Assembly (NCBI RefSeq): GCF_000255135.1 | Contig: NC_016751.1 | Location: 744,001-808,000, forward strand | Direction of reading: 5' to 3' | Length of the DNA: 64,000 nt | Origin: Marinitoga piezophila KA3 | GTDB lineage: Bacteria > Thermotogota > Thermotogae > Petrotogales > Petrotogaceae | In this document: positions 34,002-43,073 of the stretch, piece by piece | Numbering within the stretch: position 1 is the first letter of the stretch | How the letters are laid out: each line of letters opens with the position of its first letter | Program-made: the position numbers and the translations under genes | Notes under the pieces: generated by a model | The model's input: only the letters and a program-made list of their open reading frames with translations | Told to the model about the DNA's origin: nothing | Database searches by the model: none

Positions 34002-37000
34002 TTATTCGGGAGTGCTCCAACCTAACAAATTGGAATCTGTCTTTATAATATATGAATTTCCGTTAGTCTTATCATCAAAAGACTTCGTTTTTCCAAATAT
34101 AATATATCCGTCATCAGAAGATTCTATAATTCCATTAGCCACATCTTCTCCTGTTCTTCCAAAAATAACCTGTTTTTCTATATTCATTGAATCGTCTGTT
34201 TTTAGTACTTCTATATCACCATCTGTTGTATTTAACAATATAACAAAACCATTATTACTCTTTAAAAGATTTCCATTCTCAGAACCATAACTATTTTCTA
34301 TAATTGGACTGTACAACTCATTTCCCCTATAACTTATCTGTTTAAGAACAATATTCGTATCCTTATACCCAAAAATCCAGAAATCTGGATCTGTATCCAC
34401 AATAGATACTATTTTATCCATATCATCAAATTCTTTTTCAAATATTATCTCACTAAACGCATTATCTAACTTTGCTATATATCCTTTGCTGCTTTTACTT
34501 CCAGCTACTATATATCTTTCATTACCATCTTCATCGGTAATTTTAATAACATCATATAATGTTGTATCGCTAATTGTTGTAGCAGCAATAGATATTGAAT
34601 AATCTTCGTTGAATTCCACCAATATAGAGTCAGAATTATATGTTCCTACGATATCTATTTTATTATCAGAATTAATATAAATACTCTGAACTTCTGAAAT
34701 ATCCACAGTTGTGGAATATGGATTAGTTGCTGGCGGATTTGTAGTTCCTGAAAGATCTGATGCAACCTCTTCAAAACTTATTTTATCATTACTATCTTTA
34801 CCAACAACAACTATATGATTTGAAGTATTTTCAAATAACTTACACGGCTCTGATAAATTCACATTATAAGTATCTATACTATTACCATTAGAATCTACTT
34901 TCTTTAATTCATACGAGGAATCTATTTTCTCTAAATAAACGAAATTTCCATCGCTTAATTCAATCATATCAAGTATTTCTTCTACTTTATCTGAATCACC
35001 AGATTCTTTTGTGTATATATTTGTATCAACAGTTGGTGTATTATACTCATATGTACTTTCACTTATATCTCCTTTATCATCTATAGCTCTAACTTTGAAA
35101 CTATAAGTCTTAGCTGGAGTTAATCTTTCCATAAAATATTCAGTATCGCTAATATTATATGCAACTGTGCTATAATCACTTGCTCCCTCTTCCTTTTTCA
35201 ATACATCATATGTTATACTTTGATTTTCAGGATCTCTTGAAGACCATTTTAAATTAAATTCCAGTAAATCTTCATCTATATTTTCGATTTCCGGTGTTAC
35301 TGGAGGACGATTTACCGTAAATTTCAAAATTTCTGATGATGTTTCTCCACCATATTTATCCTTTGCAATTATCTTCCAGTAATATGTCTTTCCGTTTTCA
35401 AGATTAGAATGATTATAATATGCTAAACTTTGATCTGCTAACTTTAATAGAGAATCTATTGCATCACCAAACCATATTTCATATGTCAATTCTCCAGAAA
35501 CAGCATCACTATCACTACATTTCCATTTTAATGTTACATTTTTATTAATTCCAACCTCATTATTCTGAGGACTAAATGCTGTTTTATCAAATTGAGGCAA
35601 TGCATTAGTTTTAAATGAAACAACATTAGATTCAACCTCTGCTCCTTTTGAATCTATTGCCTTAACTTTCCAATAATATGTTTTATTGGAATCAAGATTA
35701 TTAACAACTAACTCATTATTTTCCGTTTCGCCAAAATACTTTAAAGAATTTGAACTTTCGCCGAGATAAATTTTATATGTTAAATCATCATCATCTGGAT
35801 CAAAAGCAGTCCATGTAAATTTGCTACCATTTGTAAAATGATTAACTGTGCTATCAGGATATAATGAATCATTATAAATAACAGGACTTCTTGTAGTTTT
35901 AAATGAAATCTCCTTAGTGGTTTTTGCTGATTTATTGTCCTCTGCTGTAATTACAAATTTATATTCGGTATTCACTTCAAAATCCAGTTTTATATAATTT
36001 AACGTTCCAAGATCTTTTGTATAATAAGGCGTTCCTTCGCCATTCTTATATACCTCAATTTGATATTCAAGCAAATCCCCGTCTGGATCCTCAAAATCCC
36101 AGCTTATTTCAACATCATTAACAGCCTCATTTGTTGAACCATCTGTAATTCCTGTTATACTCTTAAATACAGGAGCATGTGTGGTGGTAAAACTTCTAAT
36201 ATCAGTTTCTGTTACACCATACATTTCATCTTCAAGTTTTAATTTCCAGTAATATTTTTCACCTGGATCTAAATCTTCTGTTATTGTATATTCTCCATTC
36301 ATTGATTGTCTCTCTATCTTCACAGAATTATTGAGATTATTTTCATCTTTTCCATAATAAATATAAACATCAACATACGAAGAATCATTATCTTCAGCTA
36401 TCCACATTATTGTTGGATTCAACTTAACATTATTATCATCCGATCGCGGAGAATAATCCATAACTTTAGGATTAGCATTTATTTTTAAATTAATACTCTT
36501 ACCTTTTAATACCATTCCTTTATCATTAATTGCTTCCACATAAACTGTATATGTTTTTCCATCTTTAAACTCAACAATTGCGCTATTTGATGTTAAATTA
36601 TCTGCTAATATTTCTTTTTCATCTAAATATTCACCCACTATTCTGTATTTAATAGAACCATTATATGGATCGCTACTTGGATTCCATATCAACTTTAATT
36701 TTGATGGATATTTACTTTCATTAAATGTATATTTTTTATCTGGTTCATAATAATCATAAATATCTATAATATCAGGAGAGTTTTCTGGAGCCTGAGCTGT
36801 TATAAATGTTGCTACATCAGAAACTGCTGTAGCAAATTTACTATCCTCAGCCACAACATACCAGGAATATTCTGTATCTGGTTCAAGATCCTTAACCTCT
36901 TCAAGACTATACTCTTTTTCAGTTGTGGTACCTTCCAGAGTGTCATTAAGATACACATAATATAACAAAGAATCACCATCAGGATCAGAAGCATTCCAGC

Positions 37001-39161
37001 TTAAATTTTCTGATGCGGCTACACCTTCAACTCCAGATGGATCAAGATTTGATACTGTTGGTTCTTGAGATGTGGTAAATGAAAACTCATCAGAAACATT
37101 TGTTGCAAATTTGCTATCCTCCACCTCAATATACCATTTATATTCACTATCAGGTTGCAATAACAAGTTTACAGATATATTTGTATCTGTAGTTTCTTCG
37201 GTTAATACAACATTTTCCTCTGAATCCTTTACAACAACCTTATAACTCATATCTTCATCATTATTATCAGGATCTTCTGCAGACCATGACAATATTGGTT
37301 TTAAAGAAATGTTATGAGCTCCATCGGCAGGAGACATTTGGGAAATATCAGGCTTTTTAGTTGTTTCAAAATACAATTCCCCTGAATCAGTAAAATCACC
37401 ACATGTGTCATAGGCTATTACTTTCCATTTATATTTAGAATCAGAATCCAATAAATCTTCTATTTTATATTTTGTATCTGTAACAGTAGCTATTAATGTA
37501 AAATCTTCCGAACTTTTAGCCAGATATACCTGGTAATATGAAAGATTGGAATCTTCAAATTCCCATTCAAGCTCAGGTAATAAAGAAATATTATTTTCAT
37601 TATTTACAGGAGTTGCATCCTTAAAAACAGGTTTTGCATTTGTCATAAATGTTGCTACAGAACTTATAGTAGATGCTCCTGTATTATCAACTGCTTCAAC
37701 CCACCATGAATATTCCTTATTATATTCAAGAATATTCAAAACATAATAATACACACCTTTATTTTCATCATAATCCTTTGAAGATGCTGATTTCTCAAAC
37801 GGATGAACAATAAAGGTTAAATTACCGTCTGGATCATATGTTTTCCAGGATAACGTTGCATTTTTAGTTGGATAATCTATTGTTCCAGATTCTGGTTTTA
37901 AATCATACGGTTCCTGCGGATCAACATTCATTCTAAATTTTATTCTCTCTTCAACCTCATTTCCTTTACCATCATTTGCTTTTAACAAAATACCATACCA
38001 CATTCCTTTTTCCAGAGGAATGTTAGATGTATCCAATGATTTTTGATTTGTTGTTGTCTCATATATACATCCATTATCAAAATCAACATATTTTAAAATA
38101 TCGCTTTCATTTATCTTCTTTATTTTTATATTAAACGAAAGAGAATCATTATCCACATCTGTAGCCTTCCAGGTTATTGAAAATCCTTCTGGAACACCTA
38201 CTTCATTATTTTCTGGATATGTAATTTCTATTTCAGGTTTATACGATGTTGTAAATGTTGCTATTGGACTCTCAACATTTTTCACTGTATCAATAACATA
38301 CCATGAAAATTCTAACCCCGGCGGAAGATTATCTATTATATAGTACGAATTTGATGTTGAAACTCTTACAACATCATTATTATCAATAGAATTATTTGGA
38401 GAATAAACAACTTCAAACTTTGAAGGCTTTGAATATTTCCACTGTAACTTTATATTGTTAATATTAACGCTTTTACTTCCTGGAGCTGGGGAAATAATTT
38501 GAAAAACATATGACTTTACAGAAAATTCATATGTTTTATATGACCAAATATCATTGGTATCATAGGCAACAAGCTTTAAATAATATGTTTTCCCATAATC
38601 GAGATTTTTTAATAAAAAACTATTAACAGATGCATTAAATTCATTAATCTGTGTTTTATCTTCTGGAAAATCTGGATCCTCTGAAAAATACAACATAATT
38701 TTTTTTATACCGTTATTATCACTAACCTTCCATTTCACTTCATACTCCGTTGTTTCAATAACATTATCTTCCATTAAAAATTCAATTTTTGGAATATCAG
38801 AAGTTTTAAGCTCATATATATCAGAATCTGTAAATTGACCTTTCTTTACCGTTCTAATCTTAAAATAATAGGTTGAATTATCCTCAAGACCTTCAATATT
38901 TATAGATGTATTCTGTGTTGAAATAGTCCCTGTAAAATTATCTTTTGATTTACCATAATAAACTTCAAATGTAAATTCATCTGATGACGCATTACCTTCA
39001 AGATGCCACGACAACAAAAAACTCGTCGGCAAATTATCCCGTTGTGAAGGATAATCCAGAATGGCTTTAGGCGGTTTAACAAAAAAACAGCCATTTAGCA
39101 AAAATAAAATTACTACTATTAAAAATATATAAAGAATTTTTTTCTTAAATATTTTACCCAT
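34002..39161 (-). CDS. Giant lipoprotein with about 14 fibronectin-III-like repeats
   Basis: This 1719-residue protein has signal peptide and lipobox LNGC (Cys about 25). I count about 14 tandem FN3-like modules of 90-110 residues, each with a W in strand B (LSWxxxDPDGD) and a final YxWxVxAxDxxG, joined by linkers such as TTxxPxF. The last 300 or so residues form a repeat region with EDVANGIIESSDDGYIIFGK-type motifs, like a beta-propeller or delta-60 repeat. Start 39161 follows AAGGGGTGA; the longer frame to 39194 overlaps it. It probably forms a long rod on the cell surface, for adhesion or scaffolding (inference). Confidence 0.85.
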   Translation of the reverse strand: MGKIFKKKILYIFLIVVILFLLNGCFFVKPPKAILDYPSQRDNLPTSFLLSWHLEGNASSDEFTFEVYYGKSKDNFTGTISTQNTSINIEGLEDNSTYYFKIRTVKKGQFTDSDIYELKTSDIPKIEFLMEDNVIETTEYEVKWKVSDNNGIKKIMLYFSEDPDFPEDKTQINEFNASVNSFLLKNLDYGKTYYLKLVAYDTNDIWSYKTYEFSVKSYVFQIISPAPGSKSVNINNIKLQWKYSKPSKFEVVYSPNNSIDNNDVVRVSTSNSYYIIDNLPPGLEFSWYVIDTVKNVESPIATFTTSYKPEIEITYPENNEVGVPEGFSITWKATDVDNDSLSFNIKIKKINESDILKYVDFDNGCIYETTTNQKSLDTSNIPLEKGMWYGILLKANDGKGNEVEERIKFRMNVDPQEPYDLKPESGTIDYPTKNATLSWKTYDPDGNLTFIVHPFEKSASSKDYDENKGVYYYVLNILEYNKEYSWWVEAVDNTGASTISSVATFMTNAKPVFKDATPVNNENNISLLPELEWEFEDSNLSYYQVYLAKSSEDFTLIATVTDTKYKIEDLLDSDSKYKWKVIAYDTCGDFTDSGELYFETTKKPDISQMSPADGAHNISLKPILSWSAEDPDNNDEDMSYKVVVKDSEENVVLTEETTDTNISVNLLLQPDSEYKWYIEVEDSKFATNVSDEFSFTTSQEPTVSNLDPSGVEGVAASENLSWNASDPDGDSLLYYVYLNDTLEGTTTEKEYSLEEVKDLEPDTEYSWYVVAEDSKFATAVSDVATFITAQAPENSPDIIDIYDYYEPDKKYTFNESKYPSKLKLIWNPSSDPYNGSIKYRIVGEYLDEKEILADNLTSNSAIVEFKDGKTYTVYVEAINDKGMVLKGKSINLKINANPKVMDYSPRSDDNNVKLNPTIMWIAEDNDSSYVDVYIYYGKDENNLNNSVKIERQSMNGEYTITEDLDPGEKYYWKLKLEDEMYGVTETDIRSFTTTHAPVFKSITGITDGSTNEAVNDVEISWDFEDPDGDLLEYQIEVYKNGEGTPYYTKDLGTLNYIKLDFEVNTEYKFVITAEDNKSAKTTKEISFKTTRSPVIYNDSLYPDSTVNHFTNGSKFTWTAFDPDDDDLTYKIYLGESSNSLKYFGETENNELVVNNLDSNKTYYWKVKAIDSKGAEVESNVVSFKTNALPQFDKTAFSPQNNEVGINKNVTLKWKCSDSDAVSGELTYEIWFGDAIDSLLKLADQSLAYYNHSNLENGKTYYWKIIAKDKYGGETSSEILKFTVNRPPVTPEIENIDEDLLEFNLKWSSRDPENQSITYDVLKKEEGASDYSTVAYNISDTEYFMERLTPAKTYSFKVRAIDDKGDISESTYEYNTPTVDTNIYTKESGDSDKVEEILDMIELSDGNFVYLEKIDSSYELKKVDSNGNSIDTYNVNLSEPCKLFENTSNHIVVVGKDSNDKISFEEVASDLSGTTNPPATNPYSTTVDISEVQSIYINSDNKIDIVGTYNSDSILVEFNEDYSISIAATTISDTTLYDVIKITDEDGNERYIVAGSKSSKGYIAKLDNAFSEIIFEKEFDDMDKIVSIVDTDPDFWIFGYKDTNIVLKQISYRGNELYSPIIENSYGSENGNLLKSNNGFVILLNTTDGDIEVLKTDDSMNIEKQVIFGRTGEDVANGIIESSDDGYIIFGKTKSFDDKTNGNSYIIKTDSNLLGWSTPE

Positions 39162-39304
39162 ATATAAATCACCCCTTATTATTATATTCGTCAATATATC
39201 ATTCTACATTACATAACAAATTTCTTAAATTTCCAAAATAGTTTCTTCCTCAACAAATAATATTAAAATCAAATTACAACCAGTCGCATTTATATCCTTA
39301 TCTA

Positions 39305-39393: not shown

Positions 39394-39422
39394 TTGAAAA
39401 GAATTTAAAATTAGTATATAAT
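39394..39422 (+). promoter_or_regulatory. Promoter of the cohesin/dockerin unit
   Basis: TTGAAA (39394-39399), a 17-bp spacer and TATAAT (39417-39422), 35 bp before the start codon. Confidence 0.8.
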
Positions 39423-39456
39423 TTATTGTTGTGAAATATTATATCAAGGAGGGGTT

Positions 39457-40836
39457 GTGGTGAAAAAGTACATAGGGTTATTTTTGATCCTTATTTTAAG
39501 TTTGTTTATTTTCACAGGTTGTTTAACAAAGCCTGACTCTGAAAAATTAGATGAAGAAGTTTTGCCGTTATACACTATTCACTCAAACATTGAAAACGGA
39601 TCAACGGTTATTCCAAATTCAGTAGTTGTATTTAAATTAACAGACAACAACAACCAAATAGTTGAAAGTACATTGAAGCTGTACAAGGACGGTAAGATTA
39701 TAAAAGAAGAAAAAGCTTTTGAACACTTTATCACAGTAGTTGATGAAGGTTTTTATTCTGTTAATTTAATTTCATCTGATTCTGCAGTTACAAAAACCTT
39801 TGAATTTAAGGTCACAAATCTTGAAAAAGAAGTATATCAGGATGGCGGAACATGGCATATTGAGACTTTCTCTTCAGAATTTTTATATTACTCTACTATA
39901 GAACCAACTACAATACATTTAAGATTTTATAAATATGTCGAAGAAAAACTCGAAGGAACAAATGAAGTAATTAGTAAACAGGTAAGATTAAATCCTATTG
40001 ATACCAACAATGATAAAATATATGATAATTGGAATGAAATTCCATTAGAAACTGCACCTGCAACAATAAGTTTTGTATCTTATATAGAGGATACGGAGAC
40101 AAATACTACTTGGCGAGCAGATAAATTATTTTTATCCGAAGATAATGTTAAAGTTTATTATTTAGGTATAGATGGTGATTATAAAGGATATTATTTCACC
40201 CAAACATTAGTTTATAAAGGATTTGAACTAAATACATATTATAGATACTACCTCTATTTAGGAGATGACATTTATAAATCACCAACAAAAATCGATAAAC
40301 AATTTATTCTAAGAGAAAGATACAATTCAGATGATAAACCTGTATTTTCATTAAAATCAGATATTAGCGAGGTTGCTACAGATTCAGAATTAAAAGTAAC
40401 AATAAACGCTAAAAATGTTGCTGATTTTGCTAAATTATACGATGTTAGATATATGCAATTAGCTGTAAAATACAGCAAATACTTAACCTTAGAAAATGTT
40501 GAATTCCCTGAATTTATGGATGGTTATGCAGATTTTTCATCTTATAAGATTTCAAGTGGTGCAACATCTGTAATCCTTTATAAAGGCTTCACACTTGATA
40601 CAGATGAAACAGAACCAGCAAGCGAAAACTTCGCTGTATTAACCTTTAAAGTAAGCAATGACGCAACTGGAACGCTGAAAATTAATCTTGCTTATGAAGG
40701 CTATCTTGATGATTATGATACATATATTGATGTTCCAAATCCTATATTCAAAGACAAGGATAATGCAAATGTGGATGGATTTATTGTAGATCATACAGAT
40801 CTTTCCGTTGCTGTAAGCGGAGGTGATGAAGAATGA
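39457..40836 (+). CDS. Lipoprotein with C-terminal cohesin-like domain
   Basis: This 459-residue protein has a signal peptide and lipobox FTGC with Cys22, so it should be anchored in a membrane. Two beta-rich parts follow (about 35-125 Ig-like; about 126-290 unrecognised, with a DTNNDKIYD calcium-like loop). Residues 296-452 resemble a cohesin: ELKVTINAKNVADFAKLYDV, MQLAVKYSKYLTLENVEF, SVILYKGF and NFAVLTFKVSNDATGTLKI. Cohesins bind dockerins, and the next gene ends in one. The start is GTG after AAGGAGGGG. The genes overlap by four bases (ATGA). The cohesin call is by eye and moderately sure. Confidence 0.78.
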   Translation: MVKKYIGLFLILILSLFIFTGCLTKPDSEKLDEEVLPLYTIHSNIENGSTVIPNSVVVFKLTDNNNQIVESTLKLYKDGKIIKEEKAFEHFITVVDEGFYSVNLISSDSAVTKTFEFKVTNLEKEVYQDGGTWHIETFSSEFLYYSTIEPTTIHLRFYKYVEEKLEGTNEVISKQVRLNPIDTNNDKIYDNWNEIPLETAPATISFVSYIEDTETNTTWRADKLFLSEDNVKVYYLGIDGDYKGYYFTQTLVYKGFELNTYYRYYLYLGDDIYKSPTKIDKQFILRERYNSDDKPVFSLKSDISEVATDSELKVTINAKNVADFAKLYDVRYMQLAVKYSKYLTLENVEFPEFMDGYADFSSYKISSGATSVILYKGFTLDTDETEPASENFAVLTFKVSNDATGTLKINLAYEGYLDDYDTYIDVPNPIFKDKDNANVDGFIVDHTDLSVAVSGGDEE

Positions 40837-42299
40837 AAAAATTAATTATTCTCACAATCTCATTATTAATGATAATAAATCTTTTTGCAGGAAATATTGT
40901 AGATGAAATGAAAAGCAAAGTTCCAGAAATTAAAAACAATGTAGAAAAATTAAATCTCAAATGGACTCCAGGAACAAATGAAGACTTTTATTCATTCTTT
41001 GAAAGATTTGACGGAGTTACATTAGAAGATGTAAATAAAAAATTAGCCGCTTATAAGGAATTACCAGACGCCATTAAAGAAAAACTTTTAAACCATTTCA
41101 AATCCTTAAACAATTTCCCCGGTGGAAAAGTCTCACCAGATGAAATGGTTACAACAGATGATTTAATAATGTCTTCTTTTATAATGATTAAACCAGAAAA
41201 TATTATAGATAAAACATTTTATAGATTAGAACCAATAAGAGATCAAAAATATCATGGCAGTTGTTGGGCATTTTCTACAGCAGCTATGATGGAAAGTGAT
41301 TATGCAGTTCAGGTTTTAGGAGAAACAATAGACGGAAACAAGGATAATTTGATAGATTTTTCAGAAAGATGGGCAGCATATCATAACATTGATTGGGAGG
41401 TTTTAATATATTCAGGTGGTGACGTTATCCAGGATAGAAATTCTTTGGAAGGTGGAAATGTTTATTTTTCATCATATAACATGATTAGATACGGTATGAT
41501 AAAAGAAGAAAATGCACCATATTCAGATATATTCTTAACCGATGAAGAACAAATCCCGCTTCCGCCACAGGCATATGGTGCTCCAAGATATAAAGCAAAT
41601 AAAACTATACTAATTCCTGACGCAGCTTCTTCAAAAGAATTAGGATATACTTATGATGATTATATAAATATGATAAAAACAGCCTTAAAAAATTACGGTT
41701 CATTGTCAGTTGCATACCTTGTCCCTGGCGATTTCTATTATTACACAAAAGGAATTTATACACCAACTGTTTCACCATCTGGAGGACATGCTGTAACTTT
41801 AGTTGGTTGGGTTGCTGCTGAAGATCTTGATGATGTAGTTCTCGCAGGTAAAATTAGCGCCAATGCAACACCAATTCTTGACACAGAAGTTTCAAGTATT
41901 ACATATTATGACCCAACAGTTGATGCAACATATACAGCAAATTTATTCTGGATTGTAAAGAATTCATGGGGATATGACTGGGGTGACGGAGGATACTTTG
42001 TAATTCCAGCTATAACAAAAGATGCATACGATAATGGCGTTGTACAAAAATGGAATATCAATTCAAGAAATATGTACGCTTTAGTATTTGATTCAGAAGC
42101 AAAGCATGAAGGAGTTAACCTCGATATCAATGGTGACGGAACGGTTAATTTTGACGACTTTAAGGCTTTAGTTAACAAAGTCGGCTCAACAGATGCTGAG
42201 GATATTTCAAAATGTGATATTGGATATCCAAAAGATGGTAAAATAACAGGCGACGATGTTTCAACATGGATTTATCTTTATAACAAATCTAAAGAATAA
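40833..42299 (+). CDS. Secreted papain-family cysteine protease with dockerin-like domain
   Basis: This 488-residue exported protease has a signal peptide (1-19) and a propeptide-like segment (about 20-130). A C1 peptidase domain has the full catalytic set Gln138, Cys144 (HGSCWAFS), His319 (GGHAVTLVGW) and Asn377 (VKNSWG). A perfect EF-hand-like loop, 167-178 (DGNKDNLIDFSE), is inserted after the catalytic helix. Residues 429-486 resemble a type I dockerin: LDINGDGTVNFDDFKALV, then CDIGYPKDGKITGDDVSTWIYLY, with the first calcium loop intact and the second partly degenerate. It probably docks on the cohesin lipoprotein encoded just upstream. Confidence 0.85.
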   Translation: MKKLIILTISLLMIINLFAGNIVDEMKSKVPEIKNNVEKLNLKWTPGTNEDFYSFFERFDGVTLEDVNKKLAAYKELPDAIKEKLLNHFKSLNNFPGGKVSPDEMVTTDDLIMSSFIMIKPENIIDKTFYRLEPIRDQKYHGSCWAFSTAAMMESDYAVQVLGETIDGNKDNLIDFSERWAAYHNIDWEVLIYSGGDVIQDRNSLEGGNVYFSSYNMIRYGMIKEENAPYSDIFLTDEEQIPLPPQAYGAPRYKANKTILIPDAASSKELGYTYDDYINMIKTALKNYGSLSVAYLVPGDFYYYTKGIYTPTVSPSGGHAVTLVGWVAAEDLDDVVLAGKISANATPILDTEVSSITYYDPTVDATYTANLFWIVKNSWGYDWGDGGYFVIPAITKDAYDNGVVQKWNINSRNMYALVFDSEAKHEGVNLDINGDGTVNFDDFKALVNKVGSTDAEDISKCDIGYPKDGKITGDDVSTWIYLYNKSKE

Positions 42300-42308
42300 T
42301 AATCATTA

Positions 42309-42333
42309 ATTCCGGGGCCTTTCGCCCCGGAAT
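42309..42333 (+). ncRNA. GC-rich hairpin between the protease and the next gene
   Basis: ATTCCGGGGC/GCCCCGGAAT with loop CTTTC is one of the strongest hairpins in the window, but it is followed by ATATTCTATTGGAGGG rather than a T run. It may be a partial terminator, an mRNA 3'-end stabiliser or an attenuator. It lies 10 bp after the protease stop. Confidence 0.55.
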
Positions 42334-42353: not shown

Positions 42354-43073
42354 ATGAAAAAAATTATTATTGGATTATTATTTACTCTTTTAAGTATTAA
42401 TTTATTTGCCAATATACTCATTCATGAAAGCTCTTTCTTTCCAGAGAATGGTTTTAATGTTATAAATAATGACAATTTTCATATTGAAATAATTAAATTA
42501 TACGAAGATAATAATTCCAAAGCTTTTTTAATAAGAGCTGATAAAATCTATTTTGATCCAGATTATAAATTTGTATTTAAATTGAAGATAATAACAGAGA
42601 ATGAAACTTATGAAAAAAACTTATATCCTGACAGAACAGATAAAAAATCATTAAAATTGTCTCCACAATTGATTATAATGCCATCAAAAGCTAAAATCTA
42701 TTTAAATGATATTCCTTTAGAAAAATATTATGCATTTCCAGATGCAAAAAGCTTATCAGAGATATTAAAAGATATAAAAATCCACACTTTTTATTTTTAT
42801 AAAAAGGTTTCCGAAGATAAATACATACCTGTTAAAAACTTTGAAAAAAATGAGGAAGTATATTTACTTTTTGCCGGTAATCCAAAATTCACAAATAAGG
42901 CTATTATTAATATAAACAATGGAAAAATGAATATATTGACATATCCAGAATTTAAGATTTTAAGTGGAAAAAGCTATGTTTTTCAAAAAATTGGAAAATT
43001 AACAGAATCAAAGTATATAATTACTCTCAAATACGACAAAAGATCATATAGCTATGAAATAACAATAAAATAA
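42354..43073 (+). CDS. Secreted protein of unknown function
   Basis: This 239-residue protein has a signal peptide (KKIIIGLLFTLLSINLFA) and no lipobox. The rest is beta-rich and lysine-rich, without a family I can name. GGAGGG precedes ATG. It follows the protease gene after a hairpin, so it is probably in the same transcriptional unit but at a lower level. A role with the protease or the surface lipoprotein is possible but unsupported beyond gene order. Confidence 0.65.
   Translation: MKKIIIGLLFTLLSINLFANILIHESSFFPENGFNVINNDNFHIEIIKLYEDNNSKAFLIRADKIYFDPDYKFVFKLKIITENETYEKNLYPDRTDKKSLKLSPQLIIMPSKAKIYLNDIPLEKYYAFPDAKSLSEILKDIKIHTFYFYKKVSEDKYIPVKNFEKNEEVYLLFAGNPKFTNKAIININNGKMNILTYPEFKILSGKSYVFQKIGKLTESKYIITLKYDKRSYSYEITIK

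Follow-up and report, generated by a model that had tools for sequence, protein, structure and literature searches.

What does a lipoprotein do beside a secreted papain-like protease whose gene overlaps its own, as in Marinitoga piezophila KA3, and does it hold the enzyme at a membrane? The window analysed here is a stretch of 64,000 nucleotides (NC_016751.1, positions 744,001 to 808,000 of the forward strand), from whose first letter window coordinates are counted. A first-pass annotation had read the locus as two genes with a four-base overlap, and both open reading frames and their ATGA overlap were reproduced at the same coordinates. The features of the locus are as follows.

39394..39422, + strand: promoter-like site TTGAAA-17-TATAAT, 11/12 consensus positions in a consensus scan, candidate only
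39447..39456, + strand: ribosome-binding-like AAGGAGGGG, adjoining the GTG start of the lipoprotein gene, read from the sequence
39457..40836, + strand: lipoprotein gene, 459 aa, GTG start; signal peptide and lipobox, N-terminal region of ~260 residues, C-terminal predicted cohesin
39511..39525, + strand: lipobox FTGC(L) with predicted lipidated Cys22, from C22 invariance and LspA in the genome
40309..40833, + strand: predicted cohesin domain, lipoprotein residues 285-459, from AF2 model and Foldseek
40833..40836, + strand: ATGA stop/start overlap of the lipoprotein and protease genes, read from the sequence, with GGAGG just 5' of it
40833..42299, + strand: secreted papain-family (C1) protease gene, 488 aa
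42120..42260, + strand: predicted dockerin calcium-loop segments, loop 1 D431-D442 and loop 2 D462-D475, from AF2, profile against PDB and Foldseek
42309..42333, + strand: terminator-like hairpin 3' of the protease gene, 10 bp stem with 7 G-C pairs

The downstream gene encodes a Peptidase_C1 protein (PF00112, E 1.8e-24) in which the catalytic Cys, His and Asn and the oxyanion Gln that characterise papain family C1 are all present, and Q138, C144, H319 and N377 are invariant in 25 homologues of the protease. Ahead of the protease domain lies a pro-region of ~110 residues; a match to the standard C1 propeptide family was found in only 2 of the 25 members. The window protease has no lipobox. The upstream product has the features of a lipoprotein, namely a signal peptide ending in a lipobox cysteine, with LspA encoded in the genome (E 4e-34); this cysteine (C22, within FTGC) is invariant in 21/21 aligned lipoproteins, and the F at -3 makes the window lipobox a weaker consensus match. 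The ~260-residue N-terminal region that follows is conserved across homologues, differs in size between families and gave no confident family match.

Structural tests were applied to both C-terminal domains because their Pfam scores fall below the curated cut-offs, with PF00963 matching lipoprotein residues 304-412 at 19.6 bits (E 1.1e-3, cut-off 24.1 bits) and PF00404 matching protease residues 431-477 at 15.8 bits as a single match (E 0.016, cut-off 22.9 bits), the latter reaching 25.5 bits with neighbouring matches in frame. Searched against the PDB, the full lipoprotein gave no match by phmmer, and a profile of the lipoprotein alignment retrieved four cohesins with E of about 0.2. An AF2 model of residues 285-459, from an alignment of 14 natural relatives, had a pLDDT of 85.5 and a pTM of 0.83, and cohesins made up 50/50 of the Foldseek matches listed against the PDB (probability 1.00). 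The best of these was 2jh2 from C. perfringens (E 1.8e-7, probability 1.00), and the Archaeoglobus cohesin 2xdh was also among them. The lipoprotein C-terminus is accordingly modelled as a cohesin-type beta-sandwich (jelly-roll), and the cohesin that the first-pass annotation had placed at residues 296-452 agrees with both the Pfam segment and the predicted fold. Conserved Y332 and Q334, in predicted strand 3, were considered as equivalents of the dockerin-contact residues of the C. thermocellum cohesin 1OHZ; the match was plausible by eye and was set aside, as three MAFFT modes and hhalign did not support the register.

For the protease tail, the paired calcium loops on which the tether proposal depended were checked in an AF2 model of residues 420-488 (pLDDT 93.1, pTM 0.81), which shows two loop-helix units, the predicted counterpart of the two calcium loop-helix repeats of a type I dockerin. 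The earlier placement of a dockerin at residues 429-486 is in line with this fold and with the PF00404 segment. Loop 1 is canonical (D431, N433, D435, N439, D442). Loop 2 (D462 to D475) carries a two-residue insertion in the window copy; most relatives also have an irregular loop 2, in some cases devoid of acidic residues. Both loops are canonical at loci L089 and L090. A profile of the tail found cellulosomal dockerins as its best PDB matches (E 1.2e-7), and almost all Foldseek matches of the model were dockerins (ranks 1-27 all dockerin chains), among them 2ozn from C. perfringens; the small size of the domain keeps their E-values weak (best 0.07). Copies elsewhere pass the Pfam cut-offs: the L089 dockerin scores 28.3 bits against 22.9, and the Mesoaciditoga pair (L100) is above both, at 30.0 against 24.1 bits for the cohesin and 33.2 against 22.9 for the dockerin. 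The tail might alternatively be a calcium-binding domain of paired EF-hand-like loops that stabilises the enzyme and binds no cohesin, the genes adjoining for some other reason; its best single Pfam match is EF-hand_1 (E 1.3e-5), Dockerin_1 is sub-threshold and loop 2 is irregular. However, its structural neighbours are dockerins and not calmodulin-type EF hands, it is missing exactly in those proteases that bear a lipobox, and the number of cohesin copies agrees with that of dockerin copies from genome to genome (both described below), and we regard this alternative as very unlikely.

Among about 85,000 species genomes searched, the architecture was restricted to Thermotogota, and no cohesin or dockerin was found with these profiles beside C1 proteases outside the phylum (48 loci). 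On every contig that carries both genes, the protease gene directly follows the lipoprotein gene on the same strand, usually within ~20 bases. As this order and adjacency recur across Thermotogota, the match is beyond chance, and the locus is confirmed, at the level of sequence, as a cohesin lipoprotein gene adjoining a dockerin protease gene. Among 103 Thermotogota genomes, 26 have both domains, 1 the cohesin only, 3 the dockerin only and 73 neither (Fisher p 6e-20), where the cohesin profile matches 27 genomes and the dockerin profile 31, G076 and G077 being left out as weak partial matches. Each genome with both has one cohesin and one dockerin, save G032 with two of each; the single cohesin of G062 came out as two segments of the same gene. 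The second pair of G032 (L069:6787-9611) is diverged, directly follows the first and repeats its four-base overlap; it is a tandem duplication of the cassette. In the dockerin-only genomes (G033, G036 and G061) the contig breaks off within the protease gene, on the side where the lipoprotein gene is expected. The cohesin-only genome, G024, retains a lipoprotein remnant broken into several frames (L194:3684-4806), with no protease between it and a leucyl-tRNA-synthetase-like gene within a long contig; this is as expected if the lipoprotein is useless without its enzyme, and the frameshifts may be sequencing or assembly error.

Because the profiles used in the count derive from loci that had been recognised as pairs, the positive cases are biased towards pairs, but this bias does not touch the 73 genomes with neither domain, the equal copy numbers or the remnant in G024. 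The co-occurrence could also partly reflect co-inheritance of an operon, and co-inheritance of neighbours alone is no proof of contact. A further possibility is that the protease dockerin binds another cohesin and that the lipoprotein binds something else. The genome does encode another cohesin, which Pfam matches more strongly (31.3 bits, above cut-off) and which lies C-terminally in a large Fn3 protein (G000:C2:1012374-1012703; also L004 and L082:830-8499). Yet every match of a profile specific to the lipoprotein's cohesin family is next to a protease gene, one per genome except for the two in G032, and the tree of the lipoproteins agrees with that of the proteases (Mantel r 0.81, 0/2000 permutations as high), so that we consider a different cohesin partner very improbable. 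The gene after the second cohesin encodes a 1125-aa lipoprotein with cohesin-like and dockerin-like stretches (by eye) before an LVIVD propeller, and this locus is possibly a second cohesin-dockerin neighbourhood. The first-pass annotation had suggested looking for other dockerins in the genome; in a profile search the protease tail was the only one above the Pfam cut-off, and such a tail is usually the sole dockerin found per genome.

The relationship between the dockerin and membrane attachment is most apparent in four sister C1 proteases (G053, G052 copy 2, G057 copy 2 and L101) that lack a dockerin and each carry an LSGC lipobox, a motif found in 0/25 of the dockerin-bearing proteases compared. 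The four form one clade with 100/100 support, and the swap is therefore counted as one event; several independent events were considered and rejected on the same ground. Where scanned, the upstream neighbours of the lipobox proteases encode beta-propeller lipoproteins without a cohesin match, and G053, which has the lipobox form of the protease only, has no cohesin of this lipoprotein family by the family-specific profile. A row of large ORFs elsewhere in G053 (C64:2492-7541) contains four dockerin matches. These sequences suggest that the enzyme can be attached either by direct lipidation or through the cohesin-dockerin pair, and the swap thus supports membrane tethering; no other argument for tethering is as strong as this loss of a domain coinciding with gain of a lipobox, which is a single event. 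It also bears on the proposal that the lipoprotein serves the protease specifically as a chaperone, activator or inhibitor, in which any cohesin-dockerin contact would control folding or activity and not location. Strict one-to-one operon partnership, the conserved N-terminal region of the lipoprotein and the pro-region with its rare propeptide match would all suit such a role, but the dockerin-less sisters carry their own lipobox and G053 has no cohesin partner of this family, which makes membrane attachment the feature that was replaced; in addition, the size of the N-terminal region varies between families. We therefore judge a role in folding or control unlikely.

The reading that we prefer, and hold to be very probable, is that of a dedicated enzyme-and-anchor pair, in which a lipid-anchored cohesin holds the dockerin protease one-to-one and non-covalently. 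In this mechanism the lipoprotein would be exported, lipidated at Cys22 and present one cohesin at its C-terminus, and the protease would be exported by an ordinary signal peptide with the dockerin at its end. Judging from their families, the dockerin would fold with calcium and bind the cohesin of its partner, so that each lipid anchor would hold one protease, and the enzyme would be proteolytically active, probably degrading or processing proteins in the envelope or near the cell. Translational coupling through the ATGA overlap would keep both products in similar amounts. The cohesin, the dockerin, the dedicated one-to-one arrangement and the lipid anchor of the initial tether proposal are all retained, whereas its placement of the complex on the outer membrane or cell surface is not supported as worded. 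Thermotogota are diderm. As LspA is encoded in the genome and no LolA was detected there, the cytoplasmic membrane is a possible site for the anchor, which would then face the periplasm, and in a diderm envelope the complex could on the same evidence face either the periplasm or the outside.

The pair also seems to have moved between lineages. Flanking genes, named by eye from sequence, vary between families (relA-like, xanthine-dehydrogenase-like, leuS and others), and the window protease is closest to those from genomes of other families (60-64% identity, against about 37% for G007 of its own family). Together with the absence of the pair from six genomes of the same genus, this proximity to other families points to transfer as a cassette. 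We also lean, with less assurance, towards a broader reading in which the pair is a Thermotogota-wide, lipid-anchored one-to-one lock for a single envelope protease, interchangeable with direct lipidation, carried as a mobile two-gene cassette and standing apart from cellulosomes.

Cohesins outside cellulosomes have been described from C. perfringens and Archaeoglobus, and we know of no protease partner for the Archaeoglobus fulgidus one; non-cellulosomal cohesin- and dockerin-like modules were reportedly covered by a survey in 2009. OlpA and OlpC of C. thermocellum are anchored at the S-layer. As in the window, these two proteins (PDB 3ul4, 4dh2) present one type I cohesin on a cell-anchored protein, but they have many possible dockerin partners and no dedicated operon pair. 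The C. perfringens pairs (PDB 2jh2, 2ozn) likewise operate outside a cellulosome, but their modules join glycoside hydrolases together, whereas the window pair combines a lipid anchor with a protease. The A. fulgidus cohesin (PDB 2xdh) is another case from a hyperthermophile without a cellulosome, an archaeal one. With one cohesin in the lipoprotein, one enzyme, and the protease tail as the only above-cut-off dockerin in the genome, the pair lacks the make-up of a cellulosome, in which the several cohesins of a scaffoldin gather many dockerin enzymes; it would work like a single-cohesin cell anchor. The suggestion that a protease is in itself an unusual dockerin partner was too strong, as dockerin-bearing peptidases of cellulosomes are known (PMC3573020, PMC5590126, PMC12484212), including 71 putative peptidases linked to dockerins in Bacteroides cellulosolvens (PMC5590126). 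In Ruminococcus flavefaciens, the cysteine peptidase RflaF_05439 bears an X-dockerin and is bound by the single-cohesin anchor ScaE (PMC3573020), and is thus also held at the surface by an anchored one-cohesin protein; it differs in its NlpC/P60 rather than papain C1 fold, its X-dockerin dyad and its sortase-type anchor, and ScaE has other partners too and belongs to a large cellulosome in a Gram-positive. An S8 protease of C. thermocellum with a double dockerin prefers the cell-bound scaffoldin ScaD and is thought to be anchored at the surface (PMC12484212). There too a dockerin is proposed to anchor a protease to the cell, but this is a serine protease with two dockerins on a scaffoldin common to many enzymes.

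In the openly readable literature we found no description of a dedicated lipid-anchored one-to-one pair in Thermotogota, although priority is not assured. If the preferred reading is correct, the pair would reduce a cohesin-dockerin system to a natural minimum of one anchor and one enzyme from a single operon, found in diderm thermophiles without a cellulosome, and would bear on the uses of cohesins and dockerins outside cellulosomes. Growth temperatures are high in Thermosipho and Kosmotoga and moderate in Mesotoga; with carriers spanning so wide a range, the pairs may supply heat-stable orthogonal plug-and-socket parts. Because dockerin and lipobox have been exchanged in nature, the tether hypothesis is open to direct test.

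Two further genes lie beside the pair. A 1730-aa lipoprotein with ~12 fibronectin type III stretches (34002-39194, - strand) is divergently oriented to the pair and was not seen adjoining it in other genomes. Past the hairpin, downstream of the protease gene, lies a gene for a secreted 239-aa protein of no Pfam family (42354-43073, + strand), left out as a candidate third component because it had no match in the 40 relatives searched; outside those 40, G049 has a counterpart at the matching position next to its protease gene (L087:1520-2269), with 24% identity (E 4e-14).
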